Positions 3,306 through 16,617 of a stretch of 39,154 bases of DNA are shown here, piece after piece. The notes beneath the pieces were generated by a model, which searched no databases, was not told where the DNA came from, and worked only from the letters and a program-made list of their open reading frames with translations. Origin of the DNA: Bacilli bacterium (lineage in GTDB: Bacteria > Bacillota_I > Bacilli_A > RF39 > UBA660). The DNA is taken from NCBI GenBank assembly GCA_017397685.1, contig JAFQID010000027.1, forward strand, positions 1-39,154, given 5' to 3'. The translations under genes and the position numbers were made by a program. The stretch's first letter is position 1. Each line of letters starts with the position of its first letter.

Positions 3306-3425
3306 ACCTTCTCCTTTCTTTAAAATAAAAATTTCCTCGTGACAAGGAAACATAATAAACATTAAATGTTATCGCTTCCTCGGTAAGATTTACTTTTTTA
3401 CTTACTGTCTTTGGTCACTCAGTGA
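3306..3425 (-). ncRNA. Ribosomal protein L10 leader RNA
   Basis: The minus-strand 5' UTR of rplJ carries the hallmark pieces of the Firmicutes L10 leader: CCAAAGACAGTAAGT, then CTTACCGAGGAAGCG, then a terminal hairpin GTTTCCTTGTCACGAGGAAA. AGTAAG pairs with CTTACC-type sequence and CCTTGTC with the ACGAGG strand. Known function: the L10(L12)4 complex binds this RNA and represses its own operon. The boundaries are approximate, from the inferred transcription start to the SD. Confidence 0.8.
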
Positions 3426-3430
3426 TTTAG

Positions 3431-3459
3431 ATTATACAGCATTTACATAACTTTGTAAA
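3431..3459 (-). promoter_or_regulatory. Sigma-A promoter of rplJ-rplL
   Basis: On the minus strand, -35 TTTACA (3459-3454), an exact 17-nt spacer and -10 TATAAT (3436-3431). It is placed directly upstream of the L10 leader, so rplJL has its own promoter separate from rplKA. Confidence 0.85.
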
Positions 3460-13072: not shown

Positions 13073-13201
13073 TTAAAATCTACCACAGCATCCTTCATTA
13101 ATATTACTTACCACATTTTCTTCTGTACATGTATAACAAGGACTATAAGTATGTTTATATATATGATGGTTAATTATTCTTGTATTTACTGGACATACAT
13201 G
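13073..13201 (-). pseudogene. 3' part of interrupted CotD-like spore coat gene
   Basis: An open frame without a start codon. From the core at 13201 it encodes 42 residues beginning (H)VCPVNTRIINHHIYKHTYS and ending EGCCGRF, then TAA and a terminator. The His/Cys/Tyr-rich composition and the NHH-YKH-Y pattern are typical of CotD-like spore coat proteins. Just upstream of the core the frame runs into a TGA within the element. The missing 5' part lies at 16312-16551. Joining both at the shared ACA gives CAT GAA GTT CCA CAT GTA TGT CCA, in frame, for a 119-residue protein. I interpret it as a reversibly interrupted gene, not a dead one. Confidence 0.85.
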
Positions 13202-13222
13202 TCATTGCCCTTTTTTGATAGA
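13191..13222 (-). other. Left recombination junction of the coat-gene element
   Basis: The crossover core, minus-strand ACA (13202-13200), separates coat coding sequence (13199 and below) from element sequence. On the element side TCTATCA (13222-13216) lies exactly 14 nt from the CA dinucleotide. This arm is the mirror of TGATAGA at the right junction. The recombinase stop codon is one base beyond the arm, the usual attP-next-to-integrase layout. Confidence 0.75.
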
Positions 13223-13223
13223 T

Positions 13224-14789
13224 TTATAGTTTACTAAAACTAACCTTAATATTTATTGTTTTATCTTCAAATATTTCTATTTTATCAATTAAATTAATTA
13301 TAAGTTCTCTATTAGGTACTTCCATAGATAAAAATTTATTTATATAATCATTAATCATTTTATTTTTAAATTCCTCATTGTTATTATCATTAATAAAAAT
13401 ATTTAACTCATTATATCTTTTTTGTTTTATATTTAATTCATTTTCTAATTTTACTTTTACTCTTTCAAATTGTTCCTCAGTTATTTTTTTATTTAACTTA
13501 TCAATATAAATGATATCTAAATTATCATTTATTTGTTTAATATCAGAAGTAAGTATTTCTAATTCCTTTTCACTATTAATTTTATTATTCTCATCTAAAT
13601 TATTTAAAGCATTATTTTTTATTTTATCTTTATTTATATATTTCAAACACATATTGGTTAAAGAATTAATTATAACCTTTTCTAATTCATCGTAATTATT
13701 CGAATGAGTTGTACAAAGTTTTTGTTTCATATAAGTTCTATAATAATTACAAATAGTATAACATCTATTATCTTTTTTTCTTCTTGCTTGTATAGAAATG
13801 CGATGTCCACAATCACCACAATATAAAAGTCCATCTAATAAATGATTTTCTTTCTTTTCGTTTCTACCAACATTTTTAGGTATTCTTTTTTGAACTTCAT
13901 AAAAAGAATCTTTATCAATAATTGGTTCATGTGTATTTTCTATTATTATATAGTCTTTAGGATTATTTCTAATAACTTTCTTAACTTTATAATTCACTTT
14001 ACTTCTTCTGTTTTGTACCATATCACCTATATACATTTGATTAGTTAAAATATCCCTTATTGTTTTAGAGTGCCACTGTCCATATTTTAAATTATAATTA
14101 TTTTTCCATTCAAAACTATAATATTGTGCAGGGGTTTTTACTCCTTCAATTGTTAGTTGTTTTGCTATTTTAAAGAAGGATAATCCTTCTAAACACATAT
14201 CAAATATTCTTTTTACAACTAGTGATTGTTCCTCATTTATTACCAAATGATTTTTATCATTTGGATCTTGATTATAACCAAATGGAGTTCTACCACCAAC
14301 AAATTTTCCTTCTTTTTGTTTTGCCCTTAAACTTGATTTAATTTTTTTAGAAATATCTTTAGCATACATATCATTCATTATTGCTTTAAATGGTGCTATA
14401 TCATTATTAGAATTATCCAAAAATGTATCTATATTATCAGTAACTGCTATATACCTAACATTATGTTCTGGAAAATACTTTTCAATTAAATTACCTGTAC
14501 CAATATAATCTCGACCAAGTCTAGACATATCTTTAGTAATAACCATATTAATTCTGCCCAATTCAATATCATTTAATAACCTATTAAAATCAGGTCTATC
14601 AAAATTAGTTCCACTATATCCATCATCAATATAAATATCATAAACTCTTAAATTATTTTCTTTTACATATTGAAGTAATAAACTCTTTTGATTTGTAATA
14701 CTTTCACTCATCATTTGTTTATCATTATCTTCACGAGATAACCTTATATAAATACCAACATTGTATATCTTATTTAAACTCTCTAACAA
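13224..14789 (-). CDS. Large serine recombinase (skin/SpoIVCA type)
   Basis: 521 residues. The resolvase catalytic domain comes first: YIRLSRED with nucleophile Ser18, the DDGYSGTNFDRPDF block and the arginine motif KDMSRLGRDYI. The recombinase DNA-binding domain follows (GRTPFGYNQDP to RDILTNQMYIGDMVQNR), then a zinc ribbon (LLYCGDCGHRI, CNYYRTY, LCTTH), a coiled coil (around 390-470) and a C-terminal segment. Large serine recombinases cut at a 2-bp core and integrate or excise without host factors, with direction set by a small partner protein. The gene overlaps the upstream small ORF by 7 nt, and its stop lies one base from the left att arm. It almost certainly moves the surrounding element. 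Confidence 0.95.
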   Translation of the reverse strand: MLESLNKIYNVGIYIRLSREDNDKQMMSESITNQKSLLLQYVKENNLRVYDIYIDDGYSGTNFDRPDFNRLLNDIELGRINMVITKDMSRLGRDYIGTGNLIEKYFPEHNVRYIAVTDNIDTFLDNSNNDIAPFKAIMNDMYAKDISKKIKSSLRAKQKEGKFVGGRTPFGYNQDPNDKNHLVINEEQSLVVKRIFDMCLEGLSFFKIAKQLTIEGVKTPAQYYSFEWKNNYNLKYGQWHSKTIRDILTNQMYIGDMVQNRRSKVNYKVKKVIRNNPKDYIIIENTHEPIIDKDSFYEVQKRIPKNVGRNEKKENHLLDGLLYCGDCGHRISIQARRKKDNRCYTICNYYRTYMKQKLCTTHSNNYDELEKVIINSLTNMCLKYINKDKIKNNALNNLDENNKINSEKELEILTSDIKQINDNLDIIYIDKLNKKITEEQFERVKVKLENELNIKQKRYNELNIFINDNNNEEFKNKMINDYINKFLSMEVPNRELIINLIDKIEIFEDKTINIKVSFSKL

Positions 14790-14959
14790 TTTTTACCTCC
14801 TTCTAGAGATAAATAAGTACATGATGATGCTACCTCACTTTTATCATTTTTACAAATCATCTGAATATATTTTTTTAATTTTTTATTTAAAACAATAATT
14901 AATATATCATTTATATCTTTTTCTTCATTAAATATATAATTTATTTTGTACTTATCCAT
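14783..14959 (-). CDS. Small recombinase-operon protein, possible directionality factor
   Basis: 58 residues from the ATG at 14959, which has GAGGTG 8 nt upstream; a GTG 15 nt earlier is also open. It begins MDKYKINYIFNEEKDINDI and continues with a hydrophobic-basic helix (IIVLNKKLKKYIQMICKND). It overlaps the recombinase start by 7 nt, so translation is coupled. Small proteins in this position are common beside serine recombinases of Bacillota mobile elements. Recombination directionality factors of serine integrases are small and often adjacent, so an RDF role is possible, but that is inference from location; I do not recognise a named family. Confidence 0.6.
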   Translation of the reverse strand: MDKYKINYIFNEEKDINDILIIVLNKKLKKYIQMICKNDKSEVASSCTYLSLEGGKNC

Positions 14960-15002
14960 AATTAAGCACCTCACTTAAACTTATGGATAAAATATTAATT
15001 TT

Positions 15003-15053
15003 AGTAATACTAAATCGTGTAAATATCACATTACACACTAATTTAGTATTACT
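15003..15053 (-). repeat. Two-tier palindrome in the recombinase operon leader
   Basis: Perfect outer arms AGTAATACTAAAT (15003-15015) and ATTTAGTATTACT (15041-15053), and inner arms GTGTAA (15017-15022) and TTACAC (15031-15036). There is no T-run on either side, so it is not an ordinary terminator. It lies between the promoter at 15148-15120 and the small ORF, and one arm overlaps the stop of a short leader peptide. It could be a repressor operator or an RNA switch. Confidence 0.7.
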
Positions 15054-15102
15054 TATAGGCATTCACCTCTTTAAAAATTATTCTTTTAGTTTTCATATAC
15101 AT
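15049..15102 (-). CDS. Possible 17-residue leader peptide of the recombinase operon
   Basis: An ORF reading MYMKTKRIIFKEVNAYK then TAA. A perfect SD (AAAGGAG) lies 3 nt before the first ATG and 9 nt before the second; the second spacing is optimal. The stop codon lies inside the outer arm of the palindrome at 15003-15053, so ribosomes finishing this peptide would open that hairpin. A role in translational or transcriptional control of the downstream ORF and recombinase is inference. Confidence 0.4.
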   Translation of the reverse strand: MYMKTKRIIFKEVNAYK

Positions 15103-15119
15103 CAACTCCTTTCACGATG

Positions 15120-15148
15120 ATGCTAGCTTATTAATTATTGTTTGTCAA
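15120..15148 (-). promoter_or_regulatory. Sigma-A-like promoter of the recombinase operon
   Basis: On the minus strand, perfect -35 TTGACA (15148-15143), 17-nt spacer and -10 TAGCAT (15125-15120). Transcription should begin just before the SD of the leader peptide. No clear sigma-E or sigma-K pattern was found, so sporulation timing, if any, may be set post-transcriptionally or by a partner protein. Confidence 0.6.
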
Positions 15149-15206
15149 ATCATATTTTATTAATTAAATTACTAATTCATCCTAATTATTAATAATTTTC
15201 ACTAAT

Positions 15207-15322
15207 TCTACAAAAGCAGGATAAGAAGTTTGCACAACAACACCAATTATTCCCTTATTCTATAAGGAATCGGTATGTGCAAATCTTATTTTGTACTTGC
15301 AAAATTCATCCTACTTTGTAGA
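15207..15322. repeat. Large nested imperfect inverted repeat inside the element
   Basis: This is the middle of a gene-free stretch (15126-15365). Outer arms TCTACAAAAGCAGGAT (15207-15222) and ATCCTACTTTGTAGA (15308-15322), middle arms TAAGAAGTTTGCACA (15222-15236) and TGTGCAAATCTTATT (15276-15290), and inner arms TTCCCTTAT (15250-15258) and ATAAGGAA (15262-15269). It may be a structured RNA, a binding site or a replication/recombination accessory site. No convincing ORF is present. Confidence 0.6.
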
Positions 15323-15365
15323 TCGATATATATAAGAAAAAGTTTATTTTATAAAAGATTAAAGC

Positions 15366-15417
15366 ATATAAAAAACATCCTACATTTAATAAATTAATTA
15401 TTTTTGTAGGATGTTTT
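15366..15417 (-). terminator. Terminator of the Fic gene
   Basis: A 13-bp stem, AAAACATCCTACA (15372-15384) with TGTAGGATGTTTT (15405-15417), loop of 20, and a T-run on the minus strand. It starts 7 nt beyond the Fic stop. The motif CATCCTAC recurs in the neighbouring inverted repeat. Confidence 0.75.
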
Positions 15418-15423
15418 ATTTTT

Positions 15424-16176
15424 TTAGTTATTTTCTTCTATTTCAAAATCTAATAATTCTTCACACATTTTTTCATATAAATCTTGTTCATGTCCAATAG
15501 TATCAATTAAGAACATTTTATCATTTTCATATTCTTTTAAACCTCTCATATAATAAGGTTTATCATCATCTAATACAATAAATGGCATAATATTATTTCT
15601 TAAGCATTCTTTAAACATAATAATTCTGCCAACACGACCATTTCCATCCCCAAATGGATGAATGCGTTCAAATCTATAATGAAAATCCACTATATCTTCT
15701 AAAGTAATATTAGTTTTACTATTATATTCATTTAACAATTCTTCTATTTCTTTTTCTACATCTTCTGGTGCGGTAGTGTTAATAACATTAACTACACCTA
15801 TTATATTAGGAACGACTTTAAATCCACCAACATTATATCTAGGGTTTTCTTCATCACTAGTATTTCTTTTTAATATCTTATTCATTTCAATTATCATATC
15901 TTTAGTTAATAAGTTATCAACATTATCTAACATATAATCAAATAATTTGAAATGATTTTTAGATTCAGTTAAATCATCTAATTTAATTAAATCATCACTT
16001 TTAGGAATAAAAGATGATGTATCGAATATTGCTTCAGTTTGTTCACTAGTTAATCTACTACCTTCAATCTTATTTGAATTATAAGCAAAATTAACTTGTG
16101 AATAATGATATATATTACCTTTAAATTTAGATTCTTTTTGATTAATCAATTCATTCTTAATTTTAATTATATTCAT
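15424..16176 (-). CDS. Fic-domain AMPylase with N-terminal inhibitory motif
   Basis: 250 residues from the ATG at 16176; a TTG start 18 nt upstream is possible, but AAAGTGAG is placed better for the ATG. The catalytic motif HPFGDGNGRVGR matches HPFx[DE]GNGRxxR exactly, so the enzyme should transfer AMP (or another nucleotide moiety) from ATP to protein hydroxyls. Near the N-terminus, SNKIEG matches the [ST]xxxE[GN] inhibitory helix motif, placing it among self-inhibited (class II) Fic proteins. Target unknown. It has its own extended -10 promoter and terminator and is cargo of the coat-gene element; a role in element maintenance, defence or sporulation is not shown. Confidence 0.9.
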   Translation of the reverse strand: MNIIKIKNELINQKESKFKGNIYHYSQVNFAYNSNKIEGSRLTSEQTEAIFDTSSFIPKSDDLIKLDDLTESKNHFKLFDYMLDNVDNLLTKDMIIEMNKILKRNTSDEENPRYNVGGFKVVPNIIGVVNVINTTAPEDVEKEIEELLNEYNSKTNITLEDIVDFHYRFERIHPFGDGNGRVGRIIMFKECLRNNIMPFIVLDDDKPYYMRGLKEYENDKMFLIDTIGHEQDLYEKMCEELLDFEIEENN

Positions 16177-16221
16177 AAAATCACTCACTTTCAAATCTCA
16201 ATTTATCTATTTACTATATAT

Positions 16222-16232
16222 CCATTATATCA
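16222..16232 (-). promoter_or_regulatory. Extended -10 promoter of the Fic gene
   Basis: On the minus strand TGATATAAT, with TATAAT at 16229-16224, about 48 nt before the ATG. No good -35. It lies just downstream of the terminator that ends coat-fragment transcription. Confidence 0.55.
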
Positions 16233-16235
16233 CAC

Positions 16236-16264
16236 AAAAAGACATTTCTTATAAAAATGCCTTT
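16236..16264 (-). terminator. Terminator just inside the element, after the coat 5' fragment
   Basis: Stem AAAGGCATTT with AAATGTCTTT on the minus strand (16264-16255, 16247-16238; one G-U pair), followed by TTTTT. It would stop sigma-K-driven transcription of the truncated coat gene before the Fic gene while the element is in place. Confidence 0.65.
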
Positions 16265-16297
16265 AATTTGTACTTATTTTCTCTTAAATATTTTTGG

Positions 16298-16330
16298 TCT
16301 ATCATAAATTATCACTCTTGTGGAACTTCA
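16298..16330 (-). other. Right recombination junction of the coat-gene element
   Basis: The second copy of the ACA core (16321-16319) lies inside codons CCA CAA of the coat fragment. On the element side TGATAGA (16304-16298) is exactly 14 nt from the CA dinucleotide, mirror-symmetric to TCTATCA at the left junction. On the coat side, TGGAACTTCAT read outward resembles TGTATGTCCAG on the left, as expected for the two half-sites of an attB. Confidence 0.75.
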
Positions 16331-16551
16331 TGACATATTTCTCTGTGTATACATCTTTCCTCTGGACATTCATATACTGGTGGGCATACTATTCCAGGCA
16401 TAGAATATGGCATGCATGAGTTCATATATCCTAAACCATAGTTTGATACATATGCACTTGATTCTTGCGTGCTTTGCATTTCTGGTGTTATTTTTACTTC
16501 TGCAGTTCCTTCAACATTGTAACCTTGGTACATTCCATAATTTTTTTGCAT
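16312..16551 (-). CDS. 5' part of interrupted CotD-like spore coat gene
   Basis: 79 codons ending in TGA, of which the last two plus the stop come from the element. Residues 1-77 are coat-protein-like: Gly/Tyr/Met-rich N-terminus, then PGIVCPPVYECPEERCIHRE and ICHEVP. The abrupt end after HEVP, with the natural continuation HVCPVNTRIINHH found 3.1 kb away, shows interruption. It has GGAGTG before the ATG and a sigma-K-like promoter. After excision it would give a 119-residue Cys/His/Tyr-rich outer coat or crust-type protein. The shortened product may also be made; whether it is functional is unknown. Confidence 0.85.
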   Translation of the reverse strand: MQKNYGMYQGYNVEGTAEVKITPEMQSTQESSAYVSNYGLGYMNSCMPYSMPGIVCPPVYECPEERCIHREICHEVPQE

Positions 16552-16575: not shown

Positions 16576-16601
16576 TATTTTATGATAAAGAAAAAAAGTG
16601 T
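16576..16601 (-). promoter_or_regulatory. Sigma-K-like promoter of the coat gene
   Basis: On the minus strand, -10 CATAAAATA (16584-16576) fits CATAnnnTA, with AC (16601-16600) 15 nt upstream as the -35. This is the late mother-cell sigma factor pattern, consistent with a coat gene. Confidence 0.55.
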
Positions 16602-16617
16602 ATAGGACACTTAGGAA

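Follow-up and report, generated by a model that had tools for sequence, protein, structure and literature searches.

To our knowledge few elements of the skin kind have been described, namely those in sigK, spsM, spoVFB, gerE and yabG. The known examples are mostly phage-derived and come from a small number of cultured strains of the Bacillus and Clostridium type. In the skin element of C. difficile the recombinase is constitutive and driven by sigmaA, while timing is provided by a mother-cell-specific directionality factor, CD1234, which is under the control of sigmaE and SpoIIID (PMC5025042). The gin element in gerE of Bacillus cereus ATCC10987 is larger, at 28.6 kb, and encodes three recombinases, and its sporulation-specific excision has been tested (GirC and GirX) (PMC5595907).

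The locus described here lies in a window of 39,154 nucleotides, the whole stretch of DNA that was analysed, and consists of a CotD-like coat gene split by a small element. Like gin, this is a non-phage element in a short mother-cell gene, with a serine recombinase, a short shared core and rejoining in frame, and the restriction-modification system of the gin cargo also occurs in some relatives of the window element; it differs in its size of 3.1 kb, its one recombinase, its cotD target and an excision that is predicted from sequence (PMC5595907). With C. difficile skin it shares the position of the recombinase gene, just ahead of the 3' half of the split gene, and a sigmaA-type recombinase promoter, and its small ORF is a candidate counterpart of the small directionality factor, whereas skin is prophage-like, has 19 genes and targets sigK, and control of the sigmaE/SpoIIID type was not found in the window family (PMC5025042). 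The yin element in yabG of C. botulinum V73 also has a large serine recombinase (LSR) with the same three Pfam domains, a split late spore gene and inverted repeats at its att sites, but is prophage-like and known from a single strain, whereas the window family occurs in about 39 genera (PMC10747680). SPbeta in spsM of B. subtilis is likewise a mobile element with a spore-envelope gene as its attB, which is restored by excision in sporulation; it is, however, an active phage, while the window family is without recognised phage structural genes (PMC4191935). Among NCBIfam models those for the fdxN-element XisF (103 bits) and SCC CcrB (106 bits) are nearest to the recombinase, but these scores are far below the model cut-offs and it is not a member of the XisF or CcrA/CcrB families. 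No earlier report of an interruption of cotD or spoIVA was found in the open-access literature, a body that leaves most subscription journals outside.

The split coat gene and its uninterrupted alleles

The coat gene of the window is interrupted by 3119 bp at 13202-16320, and all parts lie on the minus strand. The features are as follows.

16576..16611, minus: mother-cell-type promoter of the coat gene, TATACAC ... CATAAAATA
16321..16551, minus: coat gene 5' part, codons 1-77 (MQKNYG...ICHEVP), ATG at 16551; in sister genomes its homologue is the N-terminal portion of a single gene
13202..16320, minus: integrated element of 3119 bp, a length that counts the CA core once (from a border alignment of 36 elements)
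16297..16320, minus: left end, CA core, 14 bp, arm TGATAGAC (border alignment)
15424..16194, minus: Fic-domain gene, cargo (PF02661, 57 bits)
15120..15148, minus: sigmaA-like promoter, TTGACA-N17-TAGCAT (from the sequence)
14948..15096, minus: operon leader, with a 15-codon leader peptide (15096-15049), a hairpin of 20 bp and a second hairpin that occludes both the RBS and the start codon region of the small ORF
14783..14959, minus: small ORF of 58 aa (ATG start, MDKYKIN...); it overlaps the start of the recombinase gene
13224..14789, minus: large serine recombinase, 521 aa, TTG start, strong SD (PF00239, PF07508, PF13408)
13200..13222, minus: right end, arm TCTATCA, 14 bp, CA core (border alignment)
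13073..13201, minus: coat gene 3' part, 42 codons (HVCPVNTR...CCGRF), CAT at 13201 to TAA at 13073

The 5' part reads on into CAA GAG TGA within the element, and the 3' part, which is followed by a terminator-like hairpin, has an in-frame TGA directly before it and no usable start codon of its own. ACA is common to both borders, and fusion there gives one frame of 119 codons, with ...GAAGTTCCACATGTATGTCC... as the joined DNA and HEVPHVCPVNTR as the peptide across the junction. The preliminary description had placed the two halves about 3.1 kb apart around a serine recombinase, a small ORF and a Fic gene, with a shared ACA at which a 119-codon frame could be restored. All of this was borne out: the length is that claimed, the Pfam domains were detected and the joined protein is matched in sister genomes. 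We regard the structure, a split gene and its element, as solid. The locus thus shares several features of the skin, gin and yin kind, namely a split sporulation gene, a serine recombinase, a shared att core at which the frame is restored, and an uninterrupted allele.

That allele is found elsewhere in the genus. In 13 other genomes of the genus the joined 119-aa protein aligns with one uninterrupted gene, at 66-76% identity and each time as one aligned block spanning the junction, and in two of these loci (L039 and L047) the uninterrupted gene has ffh on one side and a trmL-like gene on the other, the same neighbours as the split gene. Two separate genes in relatives had been named beforehand as the outcome that would speak against a split; the opposite was found, one continuous gene. 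In one genome (G032) a Fic gene lies downstream of an intact cotD, and no att remnant was found at that locus. Within the window genome there are no other copies of the coat gene, the only two matches being the two halves.

The gene is labelled 'CotD-like' because the joined window protein scores under the curated cut-off of Pfam Spore-coat_CotD (PF11122; E=0.2, 12.6 bits against a cut-off of 22). From the window sequence alone the name is a weak one, suggested by the C-terminal pattern and the mother-cell-type promoter. CATAnnATA with a C/A-rich -35 is the form expected for the mother-cell sigma factors sigmaE and sigmaK, and this arrangement is conserved upstream of cotD genes, both intact and split. 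The window also contains an ordinary ribosomal protein L10 leader at 3317-3432 (Rfam RF00557, 51 bits).

Element ends, recombinase operon and cargo

The border alignment took in 36 elements with both ends present, and the core common to nearly all of them is CA. The consensus left end reads CA-AGTGTGATAATTTA-TGATAGAC and the consensus right end GTCTATCA-AAAAAGGGCAAGGA-CA. Placed head to tail, the ends have inverted arms of 8 bp lying 14 bp to each side of the core, giving a symmetric attP, GTCTATCA-N14-CA-N14-TGATAGAC; in the window copy the arms are 7 bp with one mismatch. This symmetry is the form expected for a serine integrase, and rejoining at the core is in frame. Among the 386 family genomes an attP-like sequence occurs only in tandem pairs of elements in two genomes (G090 and G293), and a search of the same 386 genomes for the circle junction returned nothing except these two arrays. 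The attP pattern was absent from IMG/VR.

Each of the three Pfam domains of the recombinase (Resolvase, Recombinase and Zn_ribbon_recom) is found above its cut-off. The small ORF of the window encodes 58-63 aa, is recognisable in most elements with sequence extending upstream of the recombinase, and had no match in Pfam, NCBIfam or PHROGs; it is a candidate directionality factor or regulator, and the best candidate for the directionality role. Its leader folds with a z of -4.9 relative to shuffles, and the hairpin over the RBS is retained in nearly all aligned elements, among which no covariation was found; Rfam gave no match to the leader RNA. The arrangement looks like leader control of the small ORF and recombinase, reminiscent of translational attenuation. 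A box similar to the sigmaA-like promoter of the window is found in many, not all, elements, and no promoter of the cotD type (sigmaE/K-type) was found on the coding strand inside the 36 elements with the single motif model used. The promoter of the recombinase operon looks vegetative.

Elements range from 2.8 to 11.6 kb. The smallest (L070, 2.8 kb) carries Fic, small ORF and recombinase only, and the window copy, with the same three genes, is among the smallest of the family. Fic is the commonest cargo, although many elements lack it or have a broken copy or a remnant of it (a broken copy or remnant in L176, L048 and L067). Other cargo comprises MazF/PemK-like, NERD, ASCH, SWIM-type, DpnII restriction-modification, acetyltransferase and ATP-grasp-like proteins, the SWIM, acetyltransferase and ATP-grasp-like names being assigned by eye. 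The cargo clusters examined contained no recognised phage structural family, and the window element has none of the structural or replication genes that would mark a prophage, as the claim of a minimal non-phage cargo had anticipated.

Recurrence, mobility and related insertion sites

Relatives of the recombinase were gathered from 386 family genomes and from named genome contigs, duplicates were removed and a right flank of at least 600 bp was required. Directly after all 70 deduplicated recombinases lies a cotD 3' half, intact, on the same strand and broken at the same codon (70/71 with L195 included), whereas beside more distant recombinases none was found (0/22). The sole exception, L195 (IMG/VR 3300031555_008153), has a recombinase 84% identical and a recognisable right end that abuts non-cotD DNA. 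Both cotD halves are on one contig in 49 distinct elements. Carriers make up 49 of the 386 family genomes (about 13%), in some 39 genera, the hosts being uncultured gut Bacilli that include Candidatus Faecimonas gallistercoris. At one locus (L037, G027 C94) two cotD 3' halves stand in tandem, the second behind the right end of the element and with amino-acid changes, with a MazEF-like pair between them.

Some elements are more alike than their hosts. Two loci (L054 and L055) share a 5.6-kb element with 98.5% identical DNA and 100% identical recombinases, and their cotD genes differ; in further pairs the recombinases are 91-99% identical although host Ffh is just 67-83% identical. Over 630 pairs the divergence of recombinase and Ffh is barely correlated (r=0.13), so many insertions may be recent. 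Three loci (L051, L115 and L119) belong to close hosts, yet two different elements occupy the site. These comparisons indicate that the elements jump between genera. The insertion site, recombinase, att symmetry and recurrence fit the site-specific skin-like element of the initial picture, but the window copy is one of a horizontally mobile family rather than a lone case.

Other sporulation genes are split in a similar manner. SpoIVA is essential for coat assembly in B. subtilis, and in several genomes spoIVA is split after W121 by elements that carry a different serine recombinase (L203-L209, L218, L221-L222), with arms GGGTATCAC/GTGATACCC around a TGG core. In one of them (L203 1586-8254, G198) the element is 5.2 kb and rejoining gives full-length SpoIVA; the recombinase of the spoIVA elements in G307 and G092 is 43% identical. 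In a sample of 145 family genomes spoIVA is broken near residue 121 in about nine and near residue 404 in two, the second site being seen in G120, G224 and G384. On the spoIVA contigs of two genomes (L210/L211 in G019, L212/L213 in G004) both sides stop exactly at the TGG core, as if the assembly had forked there, either into a joined and an interrupted form or into different strains.

A sister clade of recombinases (54-58% identity) adjoins LysM-domain ORFs (L093, L095-L097, L099-L106, L188-L189), and at L104 an Amidase_3-LysM gene is split, with Amidase_3 and LysM in the 5' part. The LysM gene of L099 may be split twice, and DpnII-type cargo occurs in several sister-clade loci, as in some cotD elements. 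The window genome itself holds a second serine recombinase, 40% identical (L224, G000 C13:29460-31004), beside an amidase-LysM ORF that seems to be without its N-terminal part.

Proposed excision in the mother cell and its alternatives

We propose that a small integrative element uses the CotD-like gene as its chromosomal attachment site, and that the large serine recombinase would have inserted a circle, with a symmetric attP and CA core, at codon 78. With the element in place, transcription from the mother-cell promoter would yield only a truncated product, the conserved C-terminal domain being untranslatable; precise attL x attR recombination would then release the 3119-bp circle and give back the 119-codon gene. 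If this took place in the doomed mother cell during sporulation, the spore would keep the element and the coat protein would still be made. Precise excision at sporulation is probable because the same kind of element is found in relatives from dozens of genera, always at this codon, and we give this developmental reading, in which the coat gene is rebuilt in the sporulating mother cell, a probability of about 0.72. The window genome (G000) has sigK-like, sigE-like and spoIVA genes, and spoIVA is matched in 46 of the 48 other split-cotD genomes, in 44 of them above the cut-off.

The halves could instead be relics of a coat gene that insertion turned into a pseudogene, which would fit the fact that the full protein cannot be made while the element is integrated. 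This is very improbable: at the 70 right borders all 3' halves are open and none is broken, one break codon is kept across about 39 genera, and in ten close split pairs changes in the 3' half are mostly synonymous (synonymous:nonsynonymous, for example, 8:0, 5:0 and, for L034/L076, 12:0). Median omega of the 3' halves is 0.36 between split genes, slightly above the 0.28 between intact ones, the split set spanning many more genera. Intact halves alone are no proof that the gene is used, and because insertions turn over quickly these data show that it has been kept functional, not when. Even more improbable is an assembly or binning artefact fusing unrelated contigs. All genomes analysed are metagenome bins and one (G384), with two ffh-cotD loci, looks mixed, but identical junctions and ends recur in dozens of independent assemblies, and 49 distinct elements have both halves on one contig.

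A more serious competitor, although we consider it unlikely, is an ordinary selfish integrative element for which cotD is merely the attB. Insertion would then knock out a coat gene that the cell can spare, and excision would occur rarely, at random or under stress, without a link to the mother cell. In favour of this view are the extensive horizontal transfer and turnover of the elements, a recombinase operon with a sigmaA-like promoter and leader-type regulation, the existence of tandem arrays, the lack of a mother-cell promoter inside the 36 elements and the right end of L195 beside non-cotD DNA. Against these stand the target, which is the sole cotD copy in the window genome, the 70 of 70 intact 3' halves, and carriage by about 13% of family genomes, nearly all with spoIVA. 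Related recombinases in spoIVA and in an Amidase_3-LysM gene are, moreover, hard to explain unless excision restores the genes.

Beyond the window, we lean slightly towards a broader proposal, in which mother-cell genes (cotD, spoIVA at two sites and the LysM amidase) would serve as attachment sites for a radiation of minimal, non-phage, cargo-shuffling elements in this family of small-genome uncultured gut Bacilli, hidden in genes of the dying cell and excised there at no cost. On that proposal, sporulation in this lineage would routinely involve DNA rearrangement, in some cells at several loci. A single recombinase family, whose elements can be as small as 2.8 kb, is found at one coat-gene codon in about 39 genera, moves between them, and has related recombinases in spoIVA and the amidase. 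This pattern suggests that mobile DNA prefers, as a safe niche, genes whose expression is confined to the terminal mother cell, an idea that junction-read counts from gut metagenomes already available could test.
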